Assembly (NCBI GenBank): GCA_022572885.1
Contig: JACZVC010000003.1
Location: 1 to 64,000 of the forward strand
Length of the DNA stretch: 64,000 bases
Source of the DNA: Pseudomonadota bacterium
GTDB lineage: Bacteria; Pseudomonadota; Gammaproteobacteria; Steroidobacterales; MnTg04
Direction of reading: 5' to 3'
Both the position numbers and the translations under genes were made by a program. Every line of letters starts with the position of its first letter. Position 1 is the stretch's first letter. The notes beneath the pieces were generated by a model that saw only the letters and a list, made by a program, of their open reading frames with translations, was not told where the DNA came from and searched no databases. Of the stretch, positions 1-12,319 are shown piece after piece.

Positions 1-169
1 TAAGACGCCCCTCTCCTGGGCGGGGATACCATGTGGTAATCACATCTCCATTTGTGTCCGTGAAAGTAATTTCGACTTTGCTCGAATCGGGATTATCCTC
101 CCCGACTTGAACGACAAAGTAGTCCACCCGGGCTCCTACATGATGCGTTCTTTTCATCATTAAGGTCAT
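1..169 (-). CDS. Hypothetical element protein, 3' end beyond window edge
   Basis: An open frame starts with ATG at 169, overlapping the TGA stop of the upstream 126-aa gene (ATGA overlap), and stays open for 56 codons to the window edge. The visible product has a basic start and then a beta-strand-like stretch containing the pieces VDYFVVQVG and KVEITFTDTNGDV, which loosely recalls OB-fold type phage proteins. A second in-frame ATG pair lies a few codons downstream. No clear ribosome binding site precedes it, so translational coupling to the upstream gene is likely. I do not recognise the family; the ORF and the coupling are directly visible and any function would be a guess. Confidence 0.55.
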   Translation of the reverse strand, partial: MTLMMKRTHHVGARVDYFVVQVGEDNPDSSKVEITFTDTNGDVITTWYPRPGEGRL

Positions 170-546
170 TGGTTGACCAAGCGGTACACATCACCGTCTC
201 TCTCGATGCTGAGCGCTCCTGCCTGACCGGCGTACTTGGGGTTTTTCAGATCCGACAGGGCAGTGAGTACCGTCGAGCGTGTCACGCTCAACTGCTCGGC
301 GATCTTGTCGATCTGCCCGACCGTCACGACACCGGCCCTTTCGAACTTGCCCCGAAGCATCGCCTTTGCGCCTTTCGGGTGGCCATTGTCCTTGGCTGAC
401 TTGGCTTTGGTCGCCTGGCCATTGGCCTGCTCAGCGAATAGTTTCTCCAGTTCGGCCTTCGGTGCCTTCGTGCGAAACATCACACCGGCCGCCCGTAGGG
501 CTTCGTGCAGTTGTACCTTCGTCATCGCTTTCATTGCTTTCATCAT
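166..546 (-). CDS. Small DNA-binding-like protein (SAP-like N-terminus, winged-helix-like C-terminus)
   Basis: The product is 126 aa. The first 40 residues (TKVQLHEALRAAGV onward) resemble a SAP-type helix-extension-helix. A lysine/alanine-rich linker follows, and residues about 70-126 look like a winged helix: a helix around VTVGQIDKIAEQL, a recognition-like helix around VTRSTVLTALSDL and a beta wing ending in DGDVYRLVNQ. A good ribosome binding site (GGAGAAAG) precedes the first ATG; a second ATG follows directly, so either may be used. It lies downstream of the capsid gene on the same strand and overlaps the next gene by ATGA. A regulatory or packaging role for DNA binding is plausible but is only an inference from fold-like patterns. 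Confidence 0.6.
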   Translation of the reverse strand: MMKAMKAMTKVQLHEALRAAGVMFRTKAPKAELEKLFAEQANGQATKAKSAKDNGHPKGAKAMLRGKFERAGVVTVGQIDKIAEQLSVTRSTVLTALSDLKNPKYAGQAGALSIERDGDVYRLVNQ

Positions 547-668
547 CTTTCTCCTCTGCTTTGTGCTTAGGTGGGTTTCTCAGACCATATGTAGCTGAGT
601 AAGCTTAGGATATGACACTTTCAGATGAAAATAAAGGGGAACGAGAAAGGAGATTCAAAGGAGAAAGT

Positions 669-705
669 CGGGGCCCGCCCCTCTGACGGGTGAGGACGGG
701 CCCCG
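669..705 (-). terminator. GC-rich hairpin downstream of capsid gene
   Basis: The arms at 669-677 and 697-705 (CGGGGCCCG and CGGGCCCCG) pair perfectly, and further GC pairing extends inward. It lies between the capsid gene and the 126-aa gene on the minus strand. The bases after it on that strand (ACTTTCTCCTTT) are only moderately U-rich, so it may be a weak terminator or an RNA-stabilising structure. The rest of the 547-818 gap holds no convincing gene. Confidence 0.45.
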
Positions 706-818
706 AAGTGCAGCCGTGCAAGCGCAGGTTTGTTTTGTACGCATCGGGCATCCACCCACGCTTGCTATGTACGACCGGCCGCTTGGCCGTTGAAGTGCGA
801 ATGCCCGTCAGCGTTACT

Positions 819-2063
819 TTATGCGCCCCATTTGACCGCTTCGATGACGGCGGCTGCAACGTCATGTCGCAAGATGAGGTCGTTCCATTGCCGCAGTCTG
901 ATGGCGGCCATGTCGCGCTCGAACAGATTCGTGTCGACGCCGTCGATCTTCACGGTCGCCGCGTTGGTGCGATCGACGCTGACTTGCGGAACATCACCAA
1001 TGACGACCTCGGAGGCATCGACCAAGATGACTTTTGATTCATCGCTACCGCCGCCCAGATCGTTCGGAATGTTGTTGGTTTCAAAAAACCTGCGGCCATT
1101 GATGGTCCCGGACTGGCGCATCTCGGTGCCGAAGACGCCCCGGTCTTCGGTGTCGCGCAGATCACGCAAGAACAATCTGGAGCGCGGTGACATGATCCAG
1201 ACAGGGGACCGCATCGGTACGTCAGCGCTGAGCAACAGCTCTTCGGCTTTACGCAAGTCCGCCTGCACCTCGGTCAGCGTAGCTGATCCGCCTGCCTGTG
1301 TAGCATTGAACACGTTGGCATCGATCGCCCAATCGGTGATGCCGCGCGGTTCGCTTTCGGTGCCGGAGCCGAACAAGAAGGCCTTGTCCTCCGCGGTGCC
1401 GATTGAAGCGAGCATATCGTCGAGCAGTATGGCGTCCACATCCACGGCGAACTTGCCGAGTTCTGACGTCAGCACAACCAGCGTTGCCAACTTATGCGCA
1501 ACGAGCGAGATCGCGCCGACTTTCATCTGGCTGGACGGGATACTCTTGCCTTCGCCCACATAGGCACTGGAGACTCCGCTGGTGATCTTCGGTGTTCGTA
1601 ATGTGCCTCGGGGAATCGGGACGAGGCGGGGGCCGATCTGGCGCACTACCGAGAACGGCGACAGCAATTCTATGACGTCGGCTGCCATTTCATCCAAAAT
1701 CAACAGCCCGCCGCCCTCGGCAGAACCTGCGGATTGGGCGGCTTTGTAGTGGGACTCAATATCGAGCGTGCGCGCCATCTCCAGTTCTCGGGTTTGGTCA
1801 CCGCCACCCGTTAGGGCACAAAGGCCGAGCCGGGCGAAGACTCGTGCCGCCTCCGGCATTTCCTGTTGTCGTCCCCGAACACGATCATCATGACGATTCG
1901 ACAGAATGGTTTGTGTGTACGATCCGGGGCCGGGGCCCTCGTCCCGCATCCGACCGATCTCCGACCGGATGGCGGGTCCGAGCCCAGCCTTCAGGGAACT
2001 CTCAATCAAAGGCACGAGCAACCGGCGTAGGTCGGCCTTTTGTTTGGCAGTAAGCATTTTCAC
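819..2063 (-). CDS. HK97-family phage major capsid protein
   Basis: The 414-aa product forms the shell of a phage-type capsid. Residues about 1-120 are a charged, helical delta-domain or scaffold-like region. From about 125 onward the typical HK97 pattern appears: a segment ending in LLSPFSVVRQIG, the strand RGTLRTPKIT, then SAYVGEGKSIPSSQ and the spine-helix region VVLTSELGKFAVDVDAILLD, the P-loop-like stretch around GSGTESEPRGI, and a C-terminal A-domain ending near RQWNDLILRHDVA. A strong ribosome binding site (AAGGAGAG) precedes ATG. The stop of the 64-aa gene lies only a few bases upstream, so the two are cotranscribed. No separate prohead protease is visible next to it, which is unusual for an HK97-type cluster. 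The family assignment is secure. Confidence 0.92.
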   Translation of the reverse strand: MKMLTAKQKADLRRLLVPLIESSLKAGLGPAIRSEIGRMRDEGPGPGSYTQTILSNRHDDRVRGRQQEMPEAARVFARLGLCALTGGGDQTRELEMARTLDIESHYKAAQSAGSAEGGGLLILDEMAADVIELLSPFSVVRQIGPRLVPIPRGTLRTPKITSGVSSAYVGEGKSIPSSQMKVGAISLVAHKLATLVVLTSELGKFAVDVDAILLDDMLASIGTAEDKAFLFGSGTESEPRGITDWAIDANVFNATQAGGSATLTEVQADLRKAEELLLSADVPMRSPVWIMSPRSRLFLRDLRDTEDRGVFGTEMRQSGTINGRRFFETNNIPNDLGGGSDESKVILVDASEVVIGDVPQVSVDRTNAATVKIDGVDTNLFERDMAAIRLRQWNDLILRHDVAAAVIEAVKWGA

Positions 2064-2068
2064 TCTCC

Positions 2069-2263
2069 TTAATGTAAGACTCGTGGCTGTTGCACGGGCC
2101 CTGTAGCACTCATGTTTGGTTGTTCATGCAAGGTCTCCTGCACGAGCGCCCGTAGATCCATACCTTCGAGCGCCTCCTGCACGAGAGCCTGCAAGTCAGT
2201 GCGTTCCAATTCCTTGCGGATCAGTTGCCGCAGACGACGCCGCACCAATTCATCTTTACGCAT
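2069..2263 (-). CDS. Small charged helical protein ahead of the capsid gene
   Basis: The product is 64 aa, rich in R, E, L and Q, and predicted to be almost wholly helical. It contains a near-repeat: TDLQALVQEALEGMD followed by LRALVQETLHEQ. The ribosome binding site GGAGGTGG lies at good distance from ATG, and the gene ends a few bases before the capsid gene, which supports it as real. Its position just upstream of the major capsid protein would suit a small scaffold or capsid-assembly partner, but no homologue is recognised. It would be transcribed from the motif at 2452-2479. Confidence 0.6.
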   Translation of the reverse strand: MRKDELVRRRLRQLIRKELERTDLQALVQEALEGMDLRALVQETLHEQPNMSATGPVQQPRVLH

Positions 2264-2451
2264 GTCAATCCCACCTCCATCGGGGTTAACGACGTATCAA
2301 CTACTTACATGGGAGGACCGGGGCTTCGACCTGTACGCGAATTCGTCAGCGTCTCCAGGCCGTTCGGTTCTTGGCGGGAACTGCCGGAATCACTGTCGCC
2401 GGAATGGGATCATCGGCGAGTGGTGGTGGCGTTGCGTCCGCACAATCTAAT

Positions 2452-2479
2452 CCTATGATGCTACAGGTCGGCAGGGCAA
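2452..2479 (-). promoter_or_regulatory. Repeated motif TTGCCC-N16-CATAGG, copy A
   Basis: On the minus strand TTGCCC and CATAGG are separated by exactly 16 bases. The same arrangement is found at 3203-3230 and 6117-6144. Over 29 aligned bases this copy matches the 3202-3230 copy at 23 positions. It lies about 190 bases upstream of the 64-aa gene and capsid gene. The spacing suits a promoter with a TTG-type -35, but CATAGG is a poor sigma-70 -10, so it may be an operator or a promoter for a dedicated polymerase. Confidence 0.5.
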
Positions 2480-2526
2480 GGGGGTGTCATGCGAAATAAC
2501 TGACGGTCATAGATGCCTACGTTCGT

Positions 2527-3168
2527 TCACTTCAGTGGGTCGTTTGTAGGCGTGGGCGGAAATCGGCCTGGTCCGCGACTAGCTAGACCAATGTTTGCCA
2601 TCTCGGGGTCAGAGACAAACTCAAGACCATGATCAGTCGGGTCAATCCGTAGTCCCGTTTCGTAAGTGTTGCGGACAAAATACGACTGGCCCAATGACGC
2701 CGTTTCACTCAGCAGCTCAAGCACTAACCGTTCACTAACCTCTCGTTCACTAGCCTCTCGTTCACCGATATCACTTGCAGATGCCTGGGCCTCGATTTTG
2801 ACGGCACCCATTGTGCTCCTAAAATCTATCGGGCCAATCACGACCCCCTCGTCAGTCAGCAGCAATAGCGTTATGGTGGCGTTGCGTCCCCGACTATCCT
2901 CGACATCGATAACGCCGATATTCTCACTGTCGATACGTAGTGAGACGGTAGTGCGGGCATCGACAAGTCCCTGCCCTTCGGTGATTTTGTCGATCTTACC
3001 TATCTCGCCTAGGGCCGTCCACGTCTTCCCGTCGTGTGTGATTTGATGCCCTTCCGGGCCGCTCCATAAATTCACTGTTCCGGACAGGAACTCAAACTCG
3101 CCGAGAAAGGCGATAACGATTTTATCCTTTTCCAGTTCGTCAAGAACGGCTTGCAAGAGATTGCGCAT
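2527..3168 (-). CDS. Phage tail-type protein (virion hub/assembly-like)
   Basis: The 213-aa product starts at the ATG at 3168, directly after a GGAGGT ribosome binding site; a longer open frame upstream runs antisense through the IS30 relic and was rejected. The pattern FLGEFEFLSGTVNLWSGPEG, then HDGKTWTALGEIG, then a conserved-looking VSLRIDSENI and a C-terminal stretch around DHGLEFVSDPEMANI, resembles a widespread phage tail protein family in which a short 'W-S/T-G' segment is followed by 'W-x-G-x-G' and a late 'GLE-Y/F-V'. The middle of the C-terminal half holds an unusual acidic/serine run (EREASEREVSERLV). The tail role comes from family pattern memory, not a search. Confidence 0.6.
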   Translation of the reverse strand: MRNLLQAVLDELEKDKIVIAFLGEFEFLSGTVNLWSGPEGHQITHDGKTWTALGEIGKIDKITEGQGLVDARTTVSLRIDSENIGVIDVEDSRGRNATITLLLLTDEGVVIGPIDFRSTMGAVKIEAQASASDIGEREASEREVSERLVLELLSETASLGQSYFVRNTYETGLRIDPTDHGLEFVSDPEMANIGLASRGPGRFPPTPTNDPLK

Positions 3169-3202
3169 CAGACCTCCACAGGTAATCAATTGGCAGGAGA
3201 AG

Positions 3203-3230
3203 CCTATGATGGTTCGAGTCGGTAGGGCAA
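3203..3230 (-). promoter_or_regulatory. Repeated motif TTGCCC-N16-CATAGG, copy B
   Basis: Second copy of the element motif, with identical end hexamers and 16-base spacing. CATAGG ends 34 bases upstream of the ATG of the tail-type gene, the best-placed copy for a promoter. The plus-strand reading includes GGTTCGAGTC, which mimics a tRNA T-arm, but no tRNA can be folded around it. Confidence 0.5.
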
Positions 3231-3316
3231 TGGCGAATTTTACGAGACAAACGCTGTCCGCTTTACGCCTAAAAGCTGCCGTTGCGCTAGAATGAGGCTC
3301 AGCGGCCGCTTGTGAC

Positions 3317-3585
3317 TGCGATTTCAACCGGTCGATGCAACACTTTATCGAAAACGCGGAAGATGGCGTGTATGCCAATGAATCAAAGGACTCGTCGAGG
3401 TTTCATGGCGGCAGAGAAAGCGGAGTTGTGGAACCGCTGGAATCGAGTAGGGGCGCTGAAGTCGATTGGGCGAGGATTTGGCGAACCTTCATCGTCTGTT
3501 GATCACCAGTTGGTCGCGCACGGGGGGATCGAAACCCCAGTAGAGAGGATTAACGCATGTGTTGCATCGACCGGTTGAAATCGCA
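3317..3585 (+). mobile_element. Internally deleted IS30-family element (MITE-like)
   Basis: A perfect 27-bp inverted repeat lies at 3317-3343 and 3559-3585 (outer ends TGCGATTTCAACCGG). Between the repeats is the start of an IS30-family transposase gene joined in frame to its last codons, so about 80% of the element has been lost while both ends remain. Such deletion derivatives can be moved in trans by a full-length relative. No target-site duplication was confirmed at the outer ends. Confidence 0.8.
3372..3578 (+). pseudogene. IS30-family transposase remnant (N- and C-termini fused)
   Basis: The reading frame encodes the IS30 N-terminal HTH signature: FMAAEKAELWNRW, then LKSIGRGFGEPSSSV and QLVAHGGIE. 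It then passes directly to TPVERINACVASTG and a stop inside the right inverted repeat, which matches the usual end of these transposases. The DDE catalytic domain is completely missing, so it cannot be an active transposase. The remnant could still bind ends through its HTH. Several ATG codons (3363, 3372, 3378) could start it; the choice is arbitrary. Confidence 0.75.
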
Positions 3586-3682
3586 ACCCAAAGCGGCCAT
3601 TCCCGGTCGCTTGAAAAAGTCCAGATCATGATTACCGACTGGACAAACTGTCCATTTATACTATGCTTAGGACGTATCACCG

Positions 3683-3790
3683 ACAAAGCCAAACCCACTG
3701 AAAAACGGGGACGGAAAGCCACGGGTCCTCGCTTCCTCCGAGAAGCCAAGGAACGACTCCCCGAAGGACCCAAGATCGCCGGGCTGCCAA
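3683..3790 (+). promoter_or_regulatory. c-di-GMP-I (GEMM) riboswitch ahead of secreted-protein gene
   Basis: The plus strand reads GCCAAACC, a GAAA-containing loop, GGGGACGGAAAGCCACGGG, then a stem GGGTCC/GGACCC enclosing a variable hairpin, and AGATCGCCGGGCTGCC. This is the order of conserved blocks of the c-di-GMP-I aptamer (GCAAACC, GAAA, GGGACGCAAAGCC, P3 stem, GCCGGGUUGCC). Compared with the usual sequence, the G before CAAAC is C and the C in GACGCAAAG is G, which looks like a compensated pair swap, while the preceding G expected to contact c-di-GMP is kept. The aptamer ends about 180 bases before the ATG at 3971. I see no obvious intrinsic terminator in that interval. A perfect inverted repeat TGGACA-AAC-TGTCCA lies upstream near 3639-3653. 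Confidence 0.82.
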
Positions 3791-3970
3791 AGCAATCGAA
3801 GCAACTTGACAGTGGTCGTTATAGCAGGTGAGCCATGCTACCTCAGACTTCACCAGGGCATTTCTGGACCCATTGCCAAAACCGAGCGGTGCTTCTTTAA
3901 TCCGCCGCACACTCGCCGTAGTAGGTTTGTGTTTGACGTCACTGTCGGCGGAAGCGACGAGGATTACCAA

Positions 3971-4645
3971 ATGAAAAAATCTTTATTAATACAGACTATA
4001 TCTCTATGTTTTTCGATTCTTTTTCTTTCTTTCACGACGCTATATGCCCAATCCCAAAAAGAGTTTAAAACGTACGAAGGACATAAACAGCAGTTCCTTA
4101 TAGATATACCAGAGGGGTGGTTCGTGCATGATCAATGGGAGGCTATTACAGGTATGTCAAGTCCAACTGGGATGGTTTTTTTCACGAAAGAGAATATAGC
4201 CAAGATCAAGATGAGTGCCGAGACCGAGGAGGAGCTCCTTGCTGGACTTGAAGCCATGGCAAGAATTGATATTGGAGATATGCCATCATTCTTTGTTGAT
4301 AGACATCCGAAGAATAAAAGAATGAGTTGCGGTCATTTTGAAAAGAAAGAAACAAAATCAGTAACAAAAATGCTTAAGAAAGACAGTATGTTTGACCGCG
4401 ATCGGAAGGTTATAAGCCCCTTGACAGCAACCCCGATTTCATTTGGAGGATGTAAAGGAATTAGATTAAAGGGAGAGACTGAGAAACAAAATGGCACTAG
4501 ATGGGTTATGGACGTACACGCAGTTTCAGACGGAGAAATCCTGTACCTATTTTCTTTAAGGAATATTAAGGAGAATTATGAGAAAAATCTAAGCGTCTAC
4601 GAAAAAGCAATGTCTACAGTAAAATTGACTTCGGGTGAAGGATAG
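3971..4645 (+). CDS. Secreted protein of unknown function, A+T-rich, riboswitch-controlled
   Basis: The product is 224 aa. It begins with a clear signal peptide: MKKS, then a hydrophobic core and a cleavage region around LYAQS. The mature part is mixed alpha/beta, with a start FLIDIPEGWFVHDQ like PsbP-type or similar 'invasion/stress' secreted domains, a cysteine in MSCGHFEK and another in FGGCKGIRL, and a C-terminal strand-helix VYEKAMSTVKL. A longer open frame begins at 3806, but the ATG at 3971 has GAGGA before it and gives the signal peptide. Codon use is visibly A/T-rich compared with the G+C-rich neighbours, so it was probably acquired separately. Together with the upstream c-di-GMP-I aptamer it looks like a transferred regulatory cassette. 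I do not recognise a specific function. Confidence 0.75.
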   Translation: MKKSLLIQTISLCFSILFLSFTTLYAQSQKEFKTYEGHKQQFLIDIPEGWFVHDQWEAITGMSSPTGMVFFTKENIAKIKMSAETEEELLAGLEAMARIDIGDMPSFFVDRHPKNKRMSCGHFEKKETKSVTKMLKKDSMFDRDRKVISPLTATPISFGGCKGIRLKGETEKQNGTRWVMDVHAVSDGEILYLFSLRNIKENYEKNLSVYEKAMSTVKLTSGEG

Positions 4646-4789
4646 GAAATTCTATCGCGCTGTCGGAGCCGGGCGCGAGTCGAAACGGCCTCGAATCCTT
4701 GCGGCGATACCGGACGTCGGGGGAAGGGGCTCTGTATCATACGTAAGAGAAGCTGTTTACGATCTTTAGCGGTTTAACCACTAACAAAG

Positions 4790-4808
4790 CCCCGCCCTTG
4801 TGGCGGGG
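4790..4808. terminator. Bidirectional intrinsic terminator
   Basis: Stem CCCCGCC (4790-4796) and GGCGGGG (4802-4808) with a five-base loop, followed on the plus strand by TTTTCT and flanked on the minus strand by a weaker T-rich run. It separates the plus-strand secreted-protein gene from the convergent minus-strand three-gene operon. The rest of the 4646-4915 gap shows no gene. Confidence 0.8.
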
Positions 4809-4915
4809 TTTTCTCAAGGTCCGGTTTTGGCCGTTTGCTGCCGGTCATCTTGGTCAGTTCAATGGCGTTTGAATGTCTGCTAACGGCGAAAGCAGCCTGT
4901 CGAGCCGGCCCCGGC

Positions 4916-5422
4916 CTAATACCATTCCGAATCGTCGGATCGGAACGCATCACGCAGGCTCTCGACCGGCTCCCAGCCTTCGGCAAGTTCGTCATCCCAT
5001 TGTGGCCCATCGTGGTAGCGAAACTCGGGGTCCATCCCCATCCCTGCCAGGCTATCCAACGGGGCGGGTTCCCCATGGCTAGTATGTCGGGCAGGCCTGG
5101 TCCGTCGGGTAGGGCTCGAATCCTGCGGCGGAATCCGGCGGGTCCGTATCAATGGCACGTCGATGCCGAGCGCATCCGCCAGCAGCCGCAATGAATGGCG
5201 GACGGTCTCATCTGTCGAGGTCCACTTCGCCCGCAACCAGTCGGAGATGGACATGTCGGGATTCAAACGGGAGGGCGATGACGGGAGGTAGCGGTCACAC
5301 TTCAGACCCGCGCTGAAGAATTGCTGCCTCCGGAGTTTCTGATACCGCTCCTCGAGTGGGCGGGGTAGCGCCCCGGTCTGCCGCAGTTGGTCCAGCACGT
5401 CAAACTCTTCACTGCGCCGCAT
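4916..5422 (-). CDS. Hypothetical element protein
   Basis: The product is 168 aa, last of three genes read together on the minus strand. Its first half is helical and basic (LDQLRQTGALPRPLEERYQKLRR), the middle contains DWLRAKWTSTDETVRHSLRLLADALG, which could be a small helical DNA-binding domain, and the last third is acidic and proline/aspartate-rich with the end FRSDDSEWY, suggesting a disordered tail. No family is recognised. The start follows the 87-aa gene by a short gap. An alternative frame at 4774-5076 overlaps it but lacks a credible start. Confidence 0.5.
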   Translation of the reverse strand: MRRSEEFDVLDQLRQTGALPRPLEERYQKLRRQQFFSAGLKCDRYLPSSPSRLNPDMSISDWLRAKWTSTDETVRHSLRLLADALGIDVPLIRTRRIPPQDSSPTRRTRPARHTSHGEPAPLDSLAGMGMDPEFRYHDGPQWDDELAEGWEPVESLRDAFRSDDSEWY

Positions 5423-5449
5423 GATTGTCTCTCCCCGATGTATCTGTAT

Positions 5450-5713
5450 CTACCATGCCATACGGAGGCGGCGATCATCCTCTGGCCAGCGTTCGGCCTC
5501 TGCCTGCGCCATGAACCTTTCGGCTTGTTCTTTGATGATGTTGTAGTGTTCCGTATCTTCGGCGTCCAGCACTTCCCCACGCTGTATGCGATCTATCGCA
5601 TCCATCAACCATTCCAGATGACTGTCGCAAACGAATGGCAACCACGCCGACTTGCCGGGCTTGTTGGACTTGCCCTTGTCCCTGGCTCCGGGCCACTTCA
5701 TTAGATCGCTCAT
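5450..5713 (-). CDS. Hypothetical element protein
   Basis: The product is 87 aa, mostly helical and charged, with two tryptophan-containing segments (DSHLEWLMDAIDRIQRGE and ERWPEDDRRLRMAW). It begins with ATG overlapping the stop of the 132-aa gene by four bases (ATGA), the mark of a translationally coupled operon. No domain is recognised. Its reality rests on the coupling and on a frame without rare features. Confidence 0.5.
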   Translation of the reverse strand: MSDLMKWPGARDKGKSNKPGKSAWLPFVCDSHLEWLMDAIDRIQRGEVLDAEDTEHYNIIKEQAERFMAQAEAERWPEDDRRLRMAW

Positions 5714-6108
5714 TGCAACAACCGGCTCAATGCTCGTTCGGTCGCGTTGGCAATTCGCACGACAGTATCGGCGTCTACCACTTTACCGGCAGCCAGCGCA
5801 TGGGCTAGCGATTCCTGCTCCATGATGAGGAGCGCCGCACCAACTAGTCGGGTTCTCGTGATCGGGTTCTCAGGGTCATCCACTTGCTTGGACAAGTCAC
5901 GTATCAAGCCCATCAAGCGCTTCGCCGGTGCCGACCGTCCATCAACATGATGTGGCAAGATACGCCGACACAAGGCAGACGTTGACCGGTCAACATCGTT
6001 GGAGCCACGGGACGAATCCGAGACTATGTTGTCTGGAGCGGCAAACGAACAAGTCTCATCCCTGGCTCCATTCTGGCCGTTCCCCGTCTTGCTTCTGCGC
6101 TGCATCAT
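5710..6108 (-). CDS. Hypothetical element protein, first gene of three-gene operon
   Basis: The product is 132 aa. The first 60 residues are polar and probably disordered; residues about 60-132 form helices (KRLMGLIRDLSKQVDD, RLVGAALLIMEQESLAHAL and a C-terminal ATERALSRLLQ), a layout seen in some small terminase-like or regulatory phage proteins, though no identity can be claimed. Two ATG codons begin the frame, with AGGA upstream at usable distance. Copy C of the TTGCCC-N16-CATAGG motif lies directly upstream, with CATAGG only 8 bases before the start codon. Confidence 0.5.
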   Translation of the reverse strand: MMQRRSKTGNGQNGARDETCSFAAPDNIVSDSSRGSNDVDRSTSALCRRILPHHVDGRSAPAKRLMGLIRDLSKQVDDPENPITRTRLVGAALLIMEQESLAHALAAGKVVDADTVVRIANATERALSRLLQ

Positions 6109-6116
6109 GACGGAAT

Positions 6117-6144
6117 CCTATGACCCTTCCGGCGGCTTGGGCAA
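6117..6144 (-). promoter_or_regulatory. Repeated motif TTGCCC-N16-CATAGG, copy C
   Basis: Third copy with the same end hexamers and 16-base spacing. Identity to copy A extends beyond the core on both sides (CCCTTGCCC at one end and CATAGGATT at the other on the minus strand). The inner 16 bases differ more than between copies A and B, so the ends and the spacing are what is conserved. Confidence 0.5.
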
Positions 6145-6677
6145 GGGATAAGCGCGTTTCTATGAGTTTTCGCACTCCATGTGCCATGCTGGGGCATGTT
6201 GTAAGCCAAGTATTACGCGGTGTCCATGATGACGAGACACACTGACTGAGACGACATTCGCAGAAGGTGTTTGAGTTTTCTAGCGGCAGATTGGTGTGAT
6301 CCGGCCGGATCCCGGCACACATAGGCAGGTGGATGAGGAAAAAGGACTTGACGGTCCAATCTTTAATGGCCGGCCAAATTCGGCAACAAGATACTTTCAC
6401 AATATCCCTTCCATCTAGGATGCTCCCGACACAATCTTCATGAAGGATGGACCATACATGGATGGACTACAGATACGATGCTGAGGAAGCTGTCATTGGA
6501 GACCAGTATGGACTCCCTACTCGGACTTCTTAGGCAGCCACCAACTCCAATTGCCCTGGAGAGAATCTTTCCCCTTATGCTTCGCGACGATCTCTAGGCG
6601 GCGTACTTAGAGTGCTAGAATTACGACGTGCGTAATCAGGGTGACTTAGTTGGCGACAGGATTGAGGATGAAATGTA
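6145..6677. other. 533-bp interval without a convincing gene
   Basis: This stretch lies between divergent gene sets. A minus-strand frame (6056-6400) crosses it but overlaps the 132-aa gene, has an odd cysteine/tryptophan-rich composition and no ribosome binding site. Close to the plus-strand gene at 6678 a GAGGATG ribosome binding site is visible. I see no tRNA, repeat or terminator in the remainder. Confidence 0.5.
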
Positions 6678-7298
6678 ATGTGTGCGATTGACTGGGGCTT
6701 TGTTGCTGCGTGGGTCGGTGCACTTGCCACAGCAGGACTATTGATTGCTGCGATCTACGGTTTGGGCGTCTGGAAATCGCAATTCATTAAAACACGAGAT
6801 CATGATCTAGCGCTCCGAATTCTGCATGCAATCAGCAATAGTCACATCGTATTTGATGAACTTCGGACACCCTACGCATTGTTTTCGGACAGTGATGTAC
6901 AAGTCGAGCCACCGGAAGGAGATGGGCCGGACCCACTTTATGAGTACCGAAAGATGTTTGCACGGTACAAGGCGAGGAGCATGCACGTTTTCGCTGTCAG
7001 GAAGGAACGGACTGCACTGATACTTGAAGCCTTGGAGCTTTGGGAGGACGGAGATTATGTAGTTCGTCTAGGTGAACTAATCAATCTGCTCGCTCCTATG
7101 GAAGACTCTGTACTCGCGGAGGCAGAAAACTATGTCGATAGCCTACGGCCTGATTTGGAAGACGTTGCAGTAGAATTTGATCGGAATATTCTCTACTCGC
7201 CGCTTGATGCAGAAACACCGGACCCGACAAATGATGCGTATCAAACTGCTAAGACCAATATCTTGAATCATCTACGTCCGAAAATACGAATGGAGTAA
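6678..7298 (+). CDS. Membrane-anchored hypothetical protein
   Basis: The product is 206 aa with one N-terminal membrane segment (residues about 7-31, AAWVGALATAGLLIAAIYGL), followed by a soluble helical, acidic domain of about 170 residues. The layout (short outside N-terminus, one TM, cytoplasmic helices) is shared by many small cargo proteins of mobile elements, including some with phage-defence roles, but nothing specific is recognised. It is one of only two protein genes on the plus strand of the element, stands alone, and is followed by the tRNA gene. The start has a GAGGATG ribosome binding site. Confidence 0.6.
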   Translation: MCAIDWGFVAAWVGALATAGLLIAAIYGLGVWKSQFIKTRDHDLALRILHAISNSHIVFDELRTPYALFSDSDVQVEPPEGDGPDPLYEYRKMFARYKARSMHVFAVRKERTALILEALELWEDGDYVVRLGELINLLAPMEDSVLAEAENYVDSLRPDLEDVAVEFDRNILYSPLDAETPDPTNDAYQTAKTNILNHLRPKIRME

Positions 7299-7312
7299 GT
7301 GTTTACTGAAAT

Positions 7313-7383
7313 GCGGGCGTCGTATAATGGCATTACCTTAGCTTCCCATGCTAATGACGACGGTTCGATTCCGTTCGCCCGCT
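7313..7383 (+). tRNA. tRNA-Gly (anticodon CCC)
   Basis: A full cloverleaf can be drawn: acceptor GCGGGCG/CGCCCGC, a D-arm with GG in its loop, a five-pair anticodon stem TTAGC/GCTAA with loop TTCCCAT (anticodon CCC), a four-base variable loop, and a T-arm with loop TTCGATT. The discriminator is T, as usual for tRNA-Gly. The 3' CCA is not encoded (CAA follows), unlike most chromosomal tRNA genes of Gammaproteobacteria, which suggests it came with the element. It would read GGG codons. Confidence 0.93.
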
Positions 7384-7391
7384 CAATAAAA

Positions 7392-7412
7392 AGGGCACTG
7401 TTAAAGTGCCCT
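7392..7412 (-). terminator. Intrinsic terminator of the 105-aa gene
   Basis: An eight-pair stem AGGGCACT/AGTGCCCT with a five-base loop; on the minus strand it is followed by TTTTTATT, a strong U-tract. On the plus strand, downstream of the tRNA, it is followed by AAAACG, so it acts mainly for minus-strand transcripts. Confidence 0.8.
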
Positions 7413-7432
7413 AAAACGATCACGTGATGTAA

Positions 7433-7750
7433 TTATTTGCCACTAGCCCACCTCCAGATCGCACGAACCACCCATTGCAGAATAAACAAAGAGCCTATAA
7501 CCGCCGCCGACAACAACATGCTGCCGACAAAATACGCCACCCAAAAAGTCCACGACTCATAAATGTATCTTACTTGCGATAGCTGGTGAGCGCTTTGAAG
7601 AACGAACCATACCACCGTTAAGATTACCCAAGCCTTCATCCAGTTCCTCAGCGGTTTGATATGGTCAACCTCATATCCCGCTGGAGCGCGCTGGCGGTCC
7701 TGCTTTGCCAGGAATTTCTTTCTAACTTCTGGATCGCGCTTCTTCGTCAT
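7433..7750 (-). CDS. Small protein with HNH-like start fused to membrane segments
   Basis: The product is 105 aa. Residues 6-33 (EVRKKFLAKQDRQRAPAGYE then VDHIKPL) match the beginning of an HNH nuclease motif, where the dyad DH is followed by a strand and later N and H residues. Here the motif stops after DHIKPL. The rest consists of two or three hydrophobic helices (MKAWVILTVVWFVLQ, FWVAYFVGSMLLSAAVIGSLF), so the conserved Asn and final His are absent and nuclease activity is unlikely. It may be a chimera made by deletion, or a membrane protein with a chance match. A terminator follows at 7392-7412. Confidence 0.6.
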   Translation of the reverse strand: MTKKRDPEVRKKFLAKQDRQRAPAGYEVDHIKPLRNWMKAWVILTVVWFVLQSAHQLSQVRYIYESWTFWVAYFVGSMLLSAAVIGSLFILQWVVRAIWRWASGK

Positions 7751-7847
7751 ATTTGATTCCTCTTATGTGGCTACTGCCCATCATTGGGGGTATCGCGCCC
7801 ATCCTGCCCCGGGTATTGCACGACTTTTTCAGCCAACGCAGGCAAGT

Positions 7848-8300
7848 TCAGCGCTTTCGCTTCTTTCGCTTCCTGAACAAGTCATCGGACCTTACCGCCA
7901 CTGCCCGTTCCAGGTTCCAGCGTCTAGTCTCTCGCTCTTGTTCGACCCTTTTTTCCAGCCCGTCGTCGGATGGCCAAATCACCTTCATCTCGACTGTGTG
8001 CCCCTTAGTCAGTTCGTCCCAGATGAAATCCATGAGTTTGTTGTGGTTCTCCATGTCGTCCAAGTCCTCCATGAACATCACACTTACGTTTACATCATCA
8101 AAATTGGCCACAAGCGGGGAACCTTCCTTGACCTTCACTTCAATGGTTGCGTGAACGTCCGATGATACGGCTGCAGTTTTGTCTCTTGTACGCAACAGAT
8201 GACCTTTAGGAAGCCGACGAACCTCATCTTCAGGAAGCGGATCAGCGAACCACATATCTGTAGTCACCCAGATCGGATACTTCTTCGTTCTCGTGACCAT
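7848..8300 (-). CDS. Hypothetical element protein
   Basis: The product is 150 aa, starting at the ATG at 8300, which has a GGAGGT ribosome binding site seven bases upstream; a TTG 27 bases earlier is less likely. The N-terminal half reads as beta-rich (KYPIWVTTDMWFADPLP, ATIEVKVKEGSP), the middle is acidic (MEDLDDMENHN), and the C-terminus is a long basic helix ending in RKRKKRKR. No family is recognised. The basic tail suggests nucleic-acid or membrane-surface contact. Confidence 0.55.
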   Translation of the reverse strand: MVTRTKKYPIWVTTDMWFADPLPEDEVRRLPKGHLLRTRDKTAAVSSDVHATIEVKVKEGSPLVANFDDVNVSVMFMEDLDDMENHNKLMDFIWDELTKGHTVEMKVIWPSDDGLEKRVEQERETRRWNLERAVAVRSDDLFRKRKKRKR

Positions 8301-8650
8301 CTGTCTACCTCCCTCACCACCAGCCAATCACAGCAACCGGGCCATGGCCTTCCAATCATGACCATGAACGGGACCGACTACCATGCCCTCCATGGCCTAT
8401 CTATCCTCTATCCTTTGCTCGGGAACCGAGTCACCTAACCGGCCCCATCCACCTACCCCCTTACCGTCTCCCGCCGTATTACTAATGGCATTTGGTCAAT
8501 TCCTTTCAATAACATGAGGTTCTCGTCGATTTCCGGATTCTCTCCGTACGTCAAAATCCCATTAGTTATTTATTATCTTTAGGTAGTTCGTCACAGCCTA
8601 AACAAGTCCGAGATGCAGTTCCGCCGACACCCTCCTAAGACCATAAATAA
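8301..8650. other. 350-bp interval between two minus-strand genes
   Basis: No gene with a credible start is visible. The left part is C-rich on the plus strand. The right part is A+T-rich and contains the left arm of a 15-bp inverted repeat (8559-8573), whose right arm overlaps the end of the polymerase-like gene. Confidence 0.5.
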
Positions 8651-8657
8651 CTAATGG
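8559..8657. repeat. 15-bp perfect inverted repeat around the end of the polymerase-like gene
   Basis: CCATTAGTTATTTAT at 8559-8573 is the exact reverse complement of 8643-8657; 69 bases separate the arms. The right arm contains the stop codon of the polymerase-like gene, so its transcript would end in a long stem-loop. A shorter related string ACTAATGG occurs at about 8481. It could serve as a transcript-end structure or be a trace of a small insertion. Confidence 0.6.
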
Positions 8658-10159
8658 AGTTTGCTACGATTCGCCGGGTTGTATGACCACGGTCCCTTAA
8701 TCGGGCAGGTGAAGCCGTCATTGTGTTTTTGATACGTCTCGTCCATGACCTGCCAGAGTTCCTCAGCATGACTATCCTGTACGATGAAGCTGTCATGAAC
8801 CGGAATGATCGGGACACCCCGTTTCGTGAAATGCCAAACGACATCGAGTGCGATACGGGCATCCTTGTTCATCAACTTCATTCCGATGTCGGAGCCAAAG
8901 TAGTGTGCGATCGGAGAGTGCGCTTTTGCAAACGCCTCGATAAGCACTCGGGCCTTGCTGATGCCGAGACGGCGGAGATATCGGCTCTCGGCATAGTGTT
9001 TGTACAGCCACTCGTTGACACTGCTCTGGGCCGTGTTAACTGAGGGCGAGTCGAGCAGAGCAAGCAGCGCTGTCTTGAACAACGGCCGGGAGCGTCTGCG
9101 GGCTTCTTCGCTCCATCCGAAACCTCCGGGAATCCTGTCGATGGCATCGCTGTATGGATCACCTTCGTACTGCTTACCCTCGGCGGCATATAGCATTCGT
9201 GGATGGAGCCCCGAGTAATCCAACTCCACAACAGGTTGCCCGTCAATCGTGATGGTATGACGGTCTGTCTTCGATAACCCTTGCGCGTGTCGGTAGCCAC
9301 AACTGTGCAGACGGCCGTAGTGGTCAAAGTCGCCGATGAAGATGGCCTTCATGGCCGTATGCAGCTCGTAACACACGCCATTGTCATAGTAGGCGATGCG
9401 TGCATCCCCGTTGATCGCATTGGCACGGGCTAGCTTCTTGCGCCACCCTCGCGTCAACGGAGTTTCCTCATATAGGAGAAGTTTGAGTCCGCCCCGACGT
9501 TGTGCTCGCCGCTTTGCGTCCCCAGTTAGATCGCGATTTCGCGCGGCTCGCAATTCAACCAGCTTGGCTGGAGGCCTCACTACAACCTCACGGCACAATT
9601 CCGGATGATCCGCTAGCAGAGCGGGCGCCGCCCAAATTCGTGTCTTCCTTCCCTTGTGCTCGAAATGCGATCCTTTTTTCATGTTGATTAATCCTTCGTC
9701 ATGCAGGTACTTCGTCAATCTGAGGACACGACTTGTCGGGTACTCGTATTCGGCCGGTTGATGCCAGTCGTTGTCGTTCAGCGAAATCACGACCGGCCGT
9801 GGCCGTTCGGATCGTTCGGCAGCAATCAGGTTGGCAAGCAGGATGGAGAGGTCGCGTATCCACAAGTCGCGCCGGTAGATTCTTTGACCATGCAGAAGCC
9901 GGTTCAGCACTCCCTCTACTGTGACGGGCTCCGGCAGGCTGATCGTCGGGTTGAACCAGAGAGGATTGCGGTTCAGCCATCTTCCATTTTTCTCGCGTGG
10001 AATCCGATCTCGCTTCGCATTGGCCTTGACACCTTCGGTAAGCCTTCTTTTCCTTTCACCTGTATAATAAGCCATCGGTCTCTTGCTCCGTACTTGATTC
10101 CGGTACGGCGTCCCGCTCAGTGACGGGCGGGGTGCCACTTTCAACCTTTCTGCATCCAC
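8651..10159 (-). CDS. Family-A-type polymerase-like protein of mobile element
   Basis: The product is 502 aa from the GTG at 10159 (AGGA close upstream) or 474 aa from the ATG at 10075. Residues about 140-165 (TSRVLRLTKYLHDEGLI) look like a winged helix. The C-terminal half carries the order of family A polymerase motifs: GRLHS (about 282-286, like TGRLSS), motif A DYSGLHPRMLY (about 314-324), motif B RPLFKTALLALLDS (R358, K362) and motif C PVHDSFIV (D456). Both metal-binding aspartates and the motif B Arg/Lys are present. The residue equivalent to the Glu steric gate in motif A (SGLE in T7 DNA polymerase) is His, and motif B ends in DS rather than YG. No exonuclease domain is present. It could be a replicase, a primase-like enzyme or a single-subunit RNA polymerase relative; similar proteins occur in proteobacterial mobile elements, but their function is not known to me. 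Confidence 0.7.
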   Translation of the reverse strand: MDAERLKVAPRPSLSGTPYRNQVRSKRPMAYYTGERKRRLTEGVKANAKRDRIPREKNGRWLNRNPLWFNPTISLPEPVTVEGVLNRLLHGQRIYRRDLWIRDLSILLANLIAAERSERPRPVVISLNDNDWHQPAEYEYPTSRVLRLTKYLHDEGLINMKKGSHFEHKGRKTRIWAAPALLADHPELCREVVVRPPAKLVELRAARNRDLTGDAKRRAQRRGGLKLLLYEETPLTRGWRKKLARANAINGDARIAYYDNGVCYELHTAMKAIFIGDFDHYGRLHSCGYRHAQGLSKTDRHTITIDGQPVVELDYSGLHPRMLYAAEGKQYEGDPYSDAIDRIPGGFGWSEEARRRSRPLFKTALLALLDSPSVNTAQSSVNEWLYKHYAESRYLRRLGISKARVLIEAFAKAHSPIAHYFGSDIGMKLMNKDARIALDVVWHFTKRGVPIIPVHDSFIVQDSHAEELWQVMDETYQKHNDGFTCPIKGPWSYNPANRSKLH

Positions 10160-10283
10160 TCAGTCCTATTTTACATTACGCGTCGATTTTCCTGCTTTAC
10201 TACCGATTGTCGGGCCCTGGGCGACACCCATATCACGCCGGGATCGCGATCATCGGACCTCCGGCCGATCCTGCACGCCTATC

Positions 10284-10676
10284 CTATTGAACGGATGGTG
10301 AGCTCGGCGCATTCTGTGCCGGCACGATGCCAAGCTCCCGAAGCAGCTCTCGCATCGCGGTTTCGGGCGATTCTCCCGTCGCGCGCCTGAACGCAAACAC
10401 CAGTGGCGGGCCTAACAGCTTGACGAGTTGGCGCTCTTGCGCATGAGCGGCACCGTCTTGCGCTTCCACGAGCAGGCAGAGAAGTATCTCCAAATAGGAA
10501 AGCCCGTAGTTCTTGGCGAGTGTTTCGAGCGTGGGTCGGATCAGCTGGCGCGGCCCGTCCAGCGCGGCAAGGAACTTTGCAACTGCCGATGCCTCGGCCT
10601 TGTCTGAGCCGCGCGGAAACTTGGTCCGTATCATCGTAGCTCCGTTGTCGGGTGCGGTTTCATTCTTGCGTCGCAT
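10284..10676 (-). CDS. Hypothetical element protein
   Basis: The product is 130 aa with a basic polar start and a helical domain of about 80 residues (FLAALDGPRQLIRPTLETLAKNY in two pieces, LEILLCLLVEAQDG, ERQLVKLLGPPLVFAFRR, TAMRELLRELG). A strong AAGGAGG ribosome binding site precedes the ATG at 10676 and lies inside the end of the 73-aa gene, with which it overlaps by 17 bases. The two are therefore a coupled pair next to the comM junction. No family recognised; helical content would suit a regulatory role. Confidence 0.55.
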   Translation of the reverse strand: MRRKNETAPDNGATMIRTKFPRGSDKAEASAVAKFLAALDGPRQLIRPTLETLAKNYGLSYLEILLCLLVEAQDGAAHAQERQLVKLLGPPLVFAFRRATGESPETAMRELLRELGIVPAQNAPSSPSVQ

Positions 10677-10881
10677 GTAGTCCTCCTTGCCTGAGGTAGG
10701 TGATCACGGCCGAGACGCGTGACTGAGCGTCGTCCGCGTCCTCTGGCTCTGGCGGCGCAACCAGCATCTTGTTCACCTGCTCCTTCTGTGATCGCGGTGC
10801 ATGACACAACAGTTCAACCAAGGCCACCTGTTGTGAGTCATCGACCAATACCAGCCAATTCGGCTGTGATTTGCCCATCAT
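10660..10881 (-). CDS. Small element protein adjacent to comM junction
   Basis: The product is 73 aa from the ATG at 10881 (a second ATG follows at once); AGGA lies seven bases upstream. It reads as a strand-helix start (NWLVLVDDSQQVALVELLC) followed by a helical polar C-terminus (SQKEQVNKMLVAPPEPED). Without its own start it is also the in-frame tail of the truncated ComM frame, so a 302-aa ComM fusion could be made by read-through. The element's own start with a ribosome binding site is the simpler explanation. No family recognised. Confidence 0.55.
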   Translation of the reverse strand: MMGKSQPNWLVLVDDSQQVALVELLCHAPRSQKEQVNKMLVAPPEPEDADDAQSRVSAVITYLRQGGLHATQE

Positions 10882-10895
10882 TGCGTTCCTATACA

Positions 10896-10908
10896 ATCGT
10901 TTAACGAT
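10896..10908. repeat. Palindrome ATCGTT-T-AACGAT near the comM junction
   Basis: A perfect 6+1+6 palindrome about 19 bases inside the element from the comM boundary and just upstream of the 73-aa gene. It could be a recombinase arm or core site, or an operator for the 73-aa gene, whose possible -10 (TATAGG) lies next to it on the minus strand. Confidence 0.45.
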
Positions 10909-10926
10909 GCTAGACGCATATAGATT

Positions 10927-11568
10927 GAGGAGGCTGTGTCCACCGGCGGCCGCGATTTCCAGCGCTCGCCGCGCCAGCGATTGTCCGCGTACATCGAGCA
11001 GATCCGGCACCGGTATCGCAGACGACAGGTTTTCGGCCGGCGGGCAACGCGGCAGCGCTTGACCTCTGAAATGCTCGCAGACAGCCAGCAGGTGCGATGC
11101 GGTTCGCGCCGCCAAGCCGCTAACCAGTCCGGCCACCGCCTGGTTGCCGGTGGGAATAATCAATTCGCGGTCGCCACCGCGGGCCGCCAGCAAGGATGGC
11201 AACAGACCGCGAACCGGGTTGATCGAACCATCCAGCGATAACTCCCCATACAGCTCATAGTTGGGCAGATCGCTGGCCGGTAACTGCTTGGTCGCCGCAA
11301 GGATGGCTATCGCGATCGGGAGATCGAAGCGGCCACCTTGTTTGGGCAAGTCGGCCGGCGCCAGGTTGACCGTAATCCTGCTTACCGGCACCTCGAAACC
11401 GGCGCTTTTCAACGCCGACCGCACCCGGTCCTTGCTCTCCCTGACTGCCGTCTCCGGCAGACCGACGATATTGAGCGTCGGCAAACCACCGGACAGGAAT
11501 ACTTCCACTTTGACCGGTGGTGAATTCAGCCCTTCCAGGCCACGACAATAAATGACAGCCAGATCCAC
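10927..11568 (-). pseudogene. comM: comM (YifB, Mg-chelatase-like ATPase), disrupted by element
   Basis: ComM is a hexameric helicase that promotes branch migration during natural transformation; it is usually about 500 aa. Here residues 1-214 are present: an intact N-terminal domain with LPTLNIVGLPETAVRESKDR, ITVNLAPADLPKQGGRFDLP and YELYGELSLDGS. The frame then reaches ALEIAAAGGHSLL, where the normal protein continues into the Walker A loop (GPPGTGKT). Instead it changes to NLYASSIVKR and element sequence. All ATPase motifs are missing, so the helicase is lost unless the element excises precisely. The remaining part of comM should lie at the far end of the element, outside the window. Confidence 0.88.
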
Positions 11569-11647: not shown

Positions 11648-11887
11648 TTAGGATGCTTTCTCCAGTGTCGCCAGCCTTTCCTCCAGCGCTTTCAATTTTT
11701 CACGGGTGCGCGCCAGAACGCCCTGTTGCACCTCGAATTCCTCGCGAGTCACCAGGTCCAGGCGTTCGAGCCCGCCGCGTAGTACGCCGCGAAAATTTTG
11801 TTCCATATCGCTTTGCAGGTGCCGCAGGCTTGCTGGCACCGCCTCGGACATTCGCCGCGCGAGGTCGTCTATGATTTTGGGATCCAT
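11648..11887 (-). CDS. ubiK: Ubiquinone biosynthesis accessory factor UbiK
   Basis: The 79-aa product belongs to the BMFP/YqiC family, which binds lipids and, with UbiJ, supports assembly of the aerobic ubiquinone-synthesis complex. The pattern is typical: an N-terminal amphipathic helix (IDDLARRMSEAVPASL), the segment LERLDLVTREEFEVQ and a C-terminal coiled coil (RTREKLKALEERLATLE). The ATG at 11887 was chosen because an upstream extension to 11923 has no family support. The gene is divergent from the PII gene, the arrangement known from Pseudomonas. ubiJ is also in this window (31811). Confidence 0.9.
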   Translation of the reverse strand: MDPKIIDDLARRMSEAVPASLRHLQSDMEQNFRGVLRGGLERLDLVTREEFEVQQGVLARTREKLKALEERLATLEKAS

Positions 11888-11946
11888 GGTTTTACCCCGG
11901 TTTGTAGTAGCTCCCGGCGCCATTTTCCAGCGCCGAGGTGAGTGTT

Positions 11947-11978
11947 AGACTGCTCCGGGTATTGAGGCGGAGCAGTCT
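11947..11978 (+). promoter_or_regulatory. Hairpin covering the ribosome binding site of the PII gene
   Basis: A perfect 11-bp stem, AGACTGCTCCG (11947-11957) and CGGAGCAGTCT (11968-11978), with a ten-base loop, ends three bases before the ATG at 11981. The only Shine-Dalgarno-like sequence, GGAG, lies within the right arm. In RNA the stem would hide it; as DNA it could instead be an operator. Confidence 0.6.
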
Positions 11979-11980
11979 GA

Positions 11981-12319
<339 letters not shown>

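Follow-up and report, generated by a model that had tools for sequence, protein, structure and literature searches.

comM split beside its Walker A motif by a mobile element, with a large serine recombinase as the probable integrase

The comM gene of the source genome is interrupted just before its Walker A motif. The inserted DNA is very probably an integrative island, or an element resembling a prophage, and its large serine recombinase (LSR), P0001, would have recombined attP with an attB in comM, with the crossover at CT in a Leu codon. On the sequence side, this reading rests on the clean comM halves, the empty site of a relative, the 2-bp core, the position of the LSR gene at one end of the element, and the loci of the LSR family. 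Contigs C3 and C40 are taken as the two ends of one insertion, the element middle being unassembled; the window, i.e., the whole analyzed stretch of 64,000 nucleotides, starts at base 1 of contig C3.

The two halves of comM and the empty site

The 5' part of comM, encoding the N-terminal ChlI/Lon-like domain up to AAAGGHSLL, lies at window positions 11568–10928 on the minus strand; it matches positions 1–217 of the TIGR00368 profile and the full length of Pfam ChlI, and is colinear with the intact comM of the relative G009. Foreign sequence follows directly after AAAGGHSLL, with the comM frame staying open to position 10660 and giving a 302-aa hybrid frame; this stretch of element DNA (10660–10927, minus strand) may also contain the first ORF of the element, starting with MMGKSQPN. 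The profile matches thus bear out the sequence-only reading, according to which the comM frame is intact to AAAGGHSLL and then passes into unrelated sequence. The same reading placed the left limit at 10880: the junction is real, but lies at the CT core at 10929–10928, and 10880 already belongs to the element, approximately 48 bases from the junction.

The 3' part of comM is found on contig C40 (C40:3649–4503, with a match to TIGR00368 positions 214–499 at C40:3643–4485), directly behind the LSR gene. It had been expected to the left of the window, where it could not appear, as the window starts at C3 base 1. This surviving half is an open frame of 284 codons that starts with ATG-ATT-GGA (MIGPPGSGKT); hence, the ATPase has not been removed, as was proposed, but kept on C40. 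A profile search revealed no intact or further comM copy in the source genome, and the 3' half exists, so that neither observation named beforehand as contradicting the interruption was made. The interruption of comM by a mobile element just before Walker A is confirmed by the two halves and by the empty site in a relative.

Intact comM is present in four genomes of the same genus, which served for the suggested comparison with relatives having an empty site. In one of these genomes, G009, a single uninterrupted stretch is matched by the C3 flank, starting at window position 10928, and by the C40 flank, starting at base 3645, which meet at L062 7858/7860; hence, the insertion is clean, and no comM sequence has been lost. 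The junction sequences, given for the comM strand, are GGACACAGCCTC-CT-CAATCTATATG (left) and CGACGATAGCTGG-CT-GATGATTGGACCG (right), CT being the only bases common to both. The search for a target duplication or att repeat, also suggested earlier, thus yields an overlap of exactly 2 bp between the halves (window positions 10928–10929, AG on the plus strand and CT on the comM strand, matching C40:3646–3647). This putative crossover dinucleotide belongs to a Leu codon that precedes GPPG (Walker A) by three codons; the predicted centers of attP and of attB in comM are GGCTCAATC and CTCCTGATG, respectively. A 2-bp overlap is typical of LSRs, and CT here fits LSR recombination, not the 5-bp duplication left by a transposon. 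An assembly artefact was considered and rejected, since both contigs break comM at the core position of the family, and G009 shows the two flanks as colinear.

The element-side attachment arm (10898–10927, minus strand) shows imperfect dyad symmetry with the C40 arm, 14 of 30 positions being symmetrical (shuffle p 0.008); for comparison, the arms of the element in G229 give 15/30 (p 0.006). This is modest evidence that both element arms derive from one attP. On the comM 5' side, the chromosomal flank (11648–12319) contains ORFs and is colinear with G009; by reading alone, these are a ubiK-like ORF (11648–11923, minus strand) and a P-II regulator ORF (11981–12319, plus strand).

The recombinase family and rival explanations

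P0001 is a protein of 632 aa encoded on C40, with Resolvase, Recombinase, and zinc-ribbon domains; in the source genome, its sole match is itself. It is 39% identical to an LSR in G229 (same order) and 44% identical to one in G529 (same class), each of which adjoins a comM gene broken at this position as well; in G529, both comM halves are on one contig, approximately 10.7 kb apart. When P0001 and these two LSRs were combined into a profile, 80 relatives were retrieved from bacterial genomes and another 15 from viral contigs; the comM profile was then run across the flanks of these relatives. Searches of the collections with single-protein patterns (LSR, capsid, PHROG 4756 protein) yielded nothing, the LSR alignment being needed.

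Halves of comM adjoin most of the LSR relatives and are broken at profile positions ~220–225. In total, an LSR is accompanied by parts of comM with this cut position in 62 loci, the source genome (G000), G229, and G529 included. Where both comM halves are present (27 loci), the break is always in this Leu codon, the third ahead of GPPG, with CT or TT as the core dinucleotide that opens the codon. With numbering that runs upstream from the GPPG start, the nucleotide at position −8 is identical in 27/27 loci and that at −9 in 23/27, while that at −7 agrees in only 26%; hence, the core is 2 bp long. LSRs with the comM label cluster strongly in a tree of 97 LSRs, where the label changes 9 times, vs. 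a mean of 29 after shuffling; the target is thus largely inherited. The same Walker A-adjacent Leu dinucleotide is used by LSRs from Alpha-, Beta-, and Gammaproteobacteria and from a few other phyla. The element of the source genome has LSR domains, a split colinear target, a 2-bp core at the family position, and a recombinase of the same protein family, which places it among those with comM-targeting LSRs.

Within the tree, P0001 groups with the LSRs of L094 (a Cytophagales genome) and of viral contig L170 (98% support), and, one step further out, with that of L093 (Microbulbifer, comM site; 80% support). L094, the nearest relative with a visible site, is inserted in another gene, by reading an alkaline phosphatase, which counts against the LSR explanation. 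The L094 locus (1630–4121) also contains a small resolvase-like ORF overlapping the LSR start, similar to the tyrosine recombinase in the C40 element.

Other insertion points in comM were observed as well. In L102, L131, and L165, an LSR of the same family is found at about codon 40, a second LSR site in the gene. In G433 (C41:177660–195501, loci L057/L058), a Tn7-like element lies just after FLDELPEF/Walker B, at about TIGR00368 position 307, and has matches to TnsA, TniB, and TniQ together with a 616-aa rve/Mu-type transposase; this element further carries unknown genes and one that, by eye, resembles a DNA methyltransferase gene. In G004 (C18:15263–17871, L059), a distant LSR (27% identical) is found at the AAMNP motif, with its frame extending into comM on the other strand. 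With the site before Walker A, this makes four insertion points (codon ~40, before Walker A, after Walker B, and AAMNP), and judging by these sequences, comM is hit by at least two unrelated mechanisms.

The G433 element and the shared target gene are what could speak for the insertion of a Tn7-like or AbaR-type transposon by a DDE transposase, as in Acinetobacter. This is extremely improbable for the source genome: genes for TnsA, TnsB (TniA), TnsC (TniB), or TniQ are absent from the sequenced parts of the element (the middle is missing), the halves share only CT without a 5-bp target duplication, and the site is at TIGR00368 position 217 rather than ~307. The earlier claim that the element is unrelated to AbaR is therefore supported by the lack of Tns/Tni genes in the sequenced parts, the 2-bp overlap, and the other comM site; that of a second kind of element at the AbaR target holds for the gene, common to both, but not for the position. 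It is also very unlikely, if slightly less so, that the element was integrated not by the LSR but by the tyrosine recombinase encoded beside it, a 222-aa protein with an intact Phage_integrase domain, whose gene is directly upstream of the LSR gene on C40 and overlaps its start. The junction coincides with the exact core of about 60 loci with LSR relatives, in most flanks of which no close relative of this protein was found; moreover, tyrosine integrases usually leave longer identical cores.

A larger, though still minor, probability is assigned to two related elements in tandem, or to two strains, with the C40 LSR coming from an element other than that of the C3 genes. Capsid/Arc-like cassettes, 83% identical and one per contig, together with the contigs ending inside the element, agree with such an arrangement, while the core shared by both junctions and the symmetric attP formed by the two arms argue against it. 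It would alter the anatomy of the element, but not the conclusion about comM.

Element contents and layout of the recombinase gene

The left sequenced part of the element (1–10927, minus strand) has no match to the empty G009 locus and contains phage-type genes. These 10.9 kb encode an HK97-type major capsid protein (819–2063, minus strand; Pfam Phage_capsid 4e-37, PHROG 10), a protein of the PHROG 4756 family, whose function is unknown (8651–10159, minus strand; PHROG match), a protein with a weak match to Arc-like repressors (166–546, minus strand), and many unknown ORFs. In the PHROG 4756 protein, DYSGLHPR and PVHDSF resemble, by eye, motifs A and C of family A DNA polymerases; its relatives are mostly found in large Vibrio and Aeromonas phages. 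No portal, terminase, or tail genes accompany the HK97 capsid gene in the sequenced parts, the element middle being unassembled; the element may be a full prophage, a satellite, or a decayed prophage.

The capsid/Arc-like cassette is found twice in the genome, at window positions 166–2063 and on C40 (L007) 1–864, with 83% identical DNA; the two diverged copies may reflect two elements in tandem or a mixture of strains. A genome from another family of the order (G239:C59, L195, 5–1655) contains the same cassette once, at ~51–53% protein identity, directly beside apparent chromosomal genes and with no LSR in view. C3 and C40 both end inside the element, and its middle is missing from the assembled pieces; when it was sought in the small contigs C41–C66, only short-repeat matches were obtained, C65 and C66 reading as N.

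In the source genome, the 3' end of the LSR gene, rather than its 5' end, abuts the comM junction. Among the relatives tallied, the 5' end is nearest to the comM half in 59/59 cases (at ≤1 kb in 56), and the 3'-end layout in 0/59; the 5'-end orientation is thus the usual layout among the sampled relatives, but not a defining criterion of comM-targeting LSR elements. The sister LSR of L094 also ends near its element boundary, at the apparent alkaline phosphatase 3' end (by reading), and the 3'-end layout may belong to a small LSR sub-clade.

The LSR frame crosses the core: its stop codon is composed of the T of CT and GA of comM (...NPTIAG*), and overlaps the ATG of the 284-codon comM remainder (TGATG). 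The LSR frame would be 16 residues longer (SIYMRLASLNDCIGTQ) in the predicted circular form, where its end would read ...NPTIAGSIYMRLASLNDCIGTQ; the attachment site lies within the LSR frame, so that integration removes these 16 predicted C-terminal residues. By this analysis, the C-terminus of the recombinase could change upon integration, which might switch its activity or stability, and translation of the ComM ATPase fragment could become coupled to that of the LSR; we regard this proposal as unlikely. Mycobacteriophage BPs has an integration-dependent repressor; the analogous proposal here concerns a serine integrase. No described case of an attP located within a serine integrase gene was retrieved from the literature searched, which is weak evidence. 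A new start and ribosome-binding site for the comM 3' half was considered as a rule of the family and rejected, as an ATG at codon −4 from the attP arm is present in 14 of 50 loci, and a Shine–Dalgarno-like sequence in only 4.

Consequences of the insertion and known systems

In the proposed mechanism, P0001 would catalyze recombination of attP with the attB in comM; the insertion would be reversible, and excision would restore comM. In the integrated state, the cell would be left without a working ComM, and heterologous DNA would be poorly integrated during transformation; the lost ComM function would in turn shield the element from removal by transformation. ComM is a helicase that aids the integration of heterologous DNA, and its interruption has been linked to lower transformation (PMC11472951). 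Since comEC (799 aa) and dprA are intact in the source genome, a transformation defect is at least meaningful here, and the source strain would be expected to transform poorly. The locus is a precisely mapped example, with an empty-site relative, in favor of the view that mobile elements repeatedly evolve to disable comM, and the Leu-codon dinucleotide beside Walker A can serve as a practical predicted attB.

Mobile elements in comM, and LSR targeting of this gene, are already known. The element is unlike AbaR, yet LSR targeting of "magnesium chelatase" has been published, hence, the insertion habit is not new, and a second, unrelated kind of element in comM, which was earlier suggested to be of interest, has already been described in the form of LSR insertions (PMC10083194; PMC9203015). 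A literature search for serine recombinases and comM by gene name retrieved nothing relevant, the known reports using "magnesium chelatase". This gene is reported to be targeted by 12.4% of the site-specific LSRs predicted, and an enrichment of competence genes is reported as well (PMC10083194). What is added to the published work is the codon-level map of the core and the LSR 3'-end layout.

The elements of Durrant et al. (2022; PMC10083194) resemble the present one in having an LSR, the same target family, and a dinucleotide core, and there, as here, distant LSRs share a target; the likeness is at the gene level, and they differ in that here the LSR 3' end is at the junction and the attachment site is inside the LSR frame. 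Likewise at the gene level, the sr1 group of phage WO in Wolbachia (PMC9203015) is an LSR prophage that has integrated into the magnesium chelatase gene and is flanked on either side by parts of this gene, although in another host and with other phage genes. In AbaR/Tn6022-type islands of Acinetobacter (PMC11472951), comM is also cut within the Mg-chelatase domain, and transformation is lowered there; however, these islands move by DDE transposition with Tns/Tni proteins, and the G433 example is at another comM position. Mobile genetic elements in comM with integrases similar to CF65_00446, at an orthologous site in several genera, were described by Croucher et al. (2016; PMC4774983), where comM insertions are explained as intragenomic conflict. 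Finally, A118 of Listeria and similar phages in comK/comFA (PMC4774983; PMC3556126) are also LSR phages in a competence gene, although the gene and the step are different.
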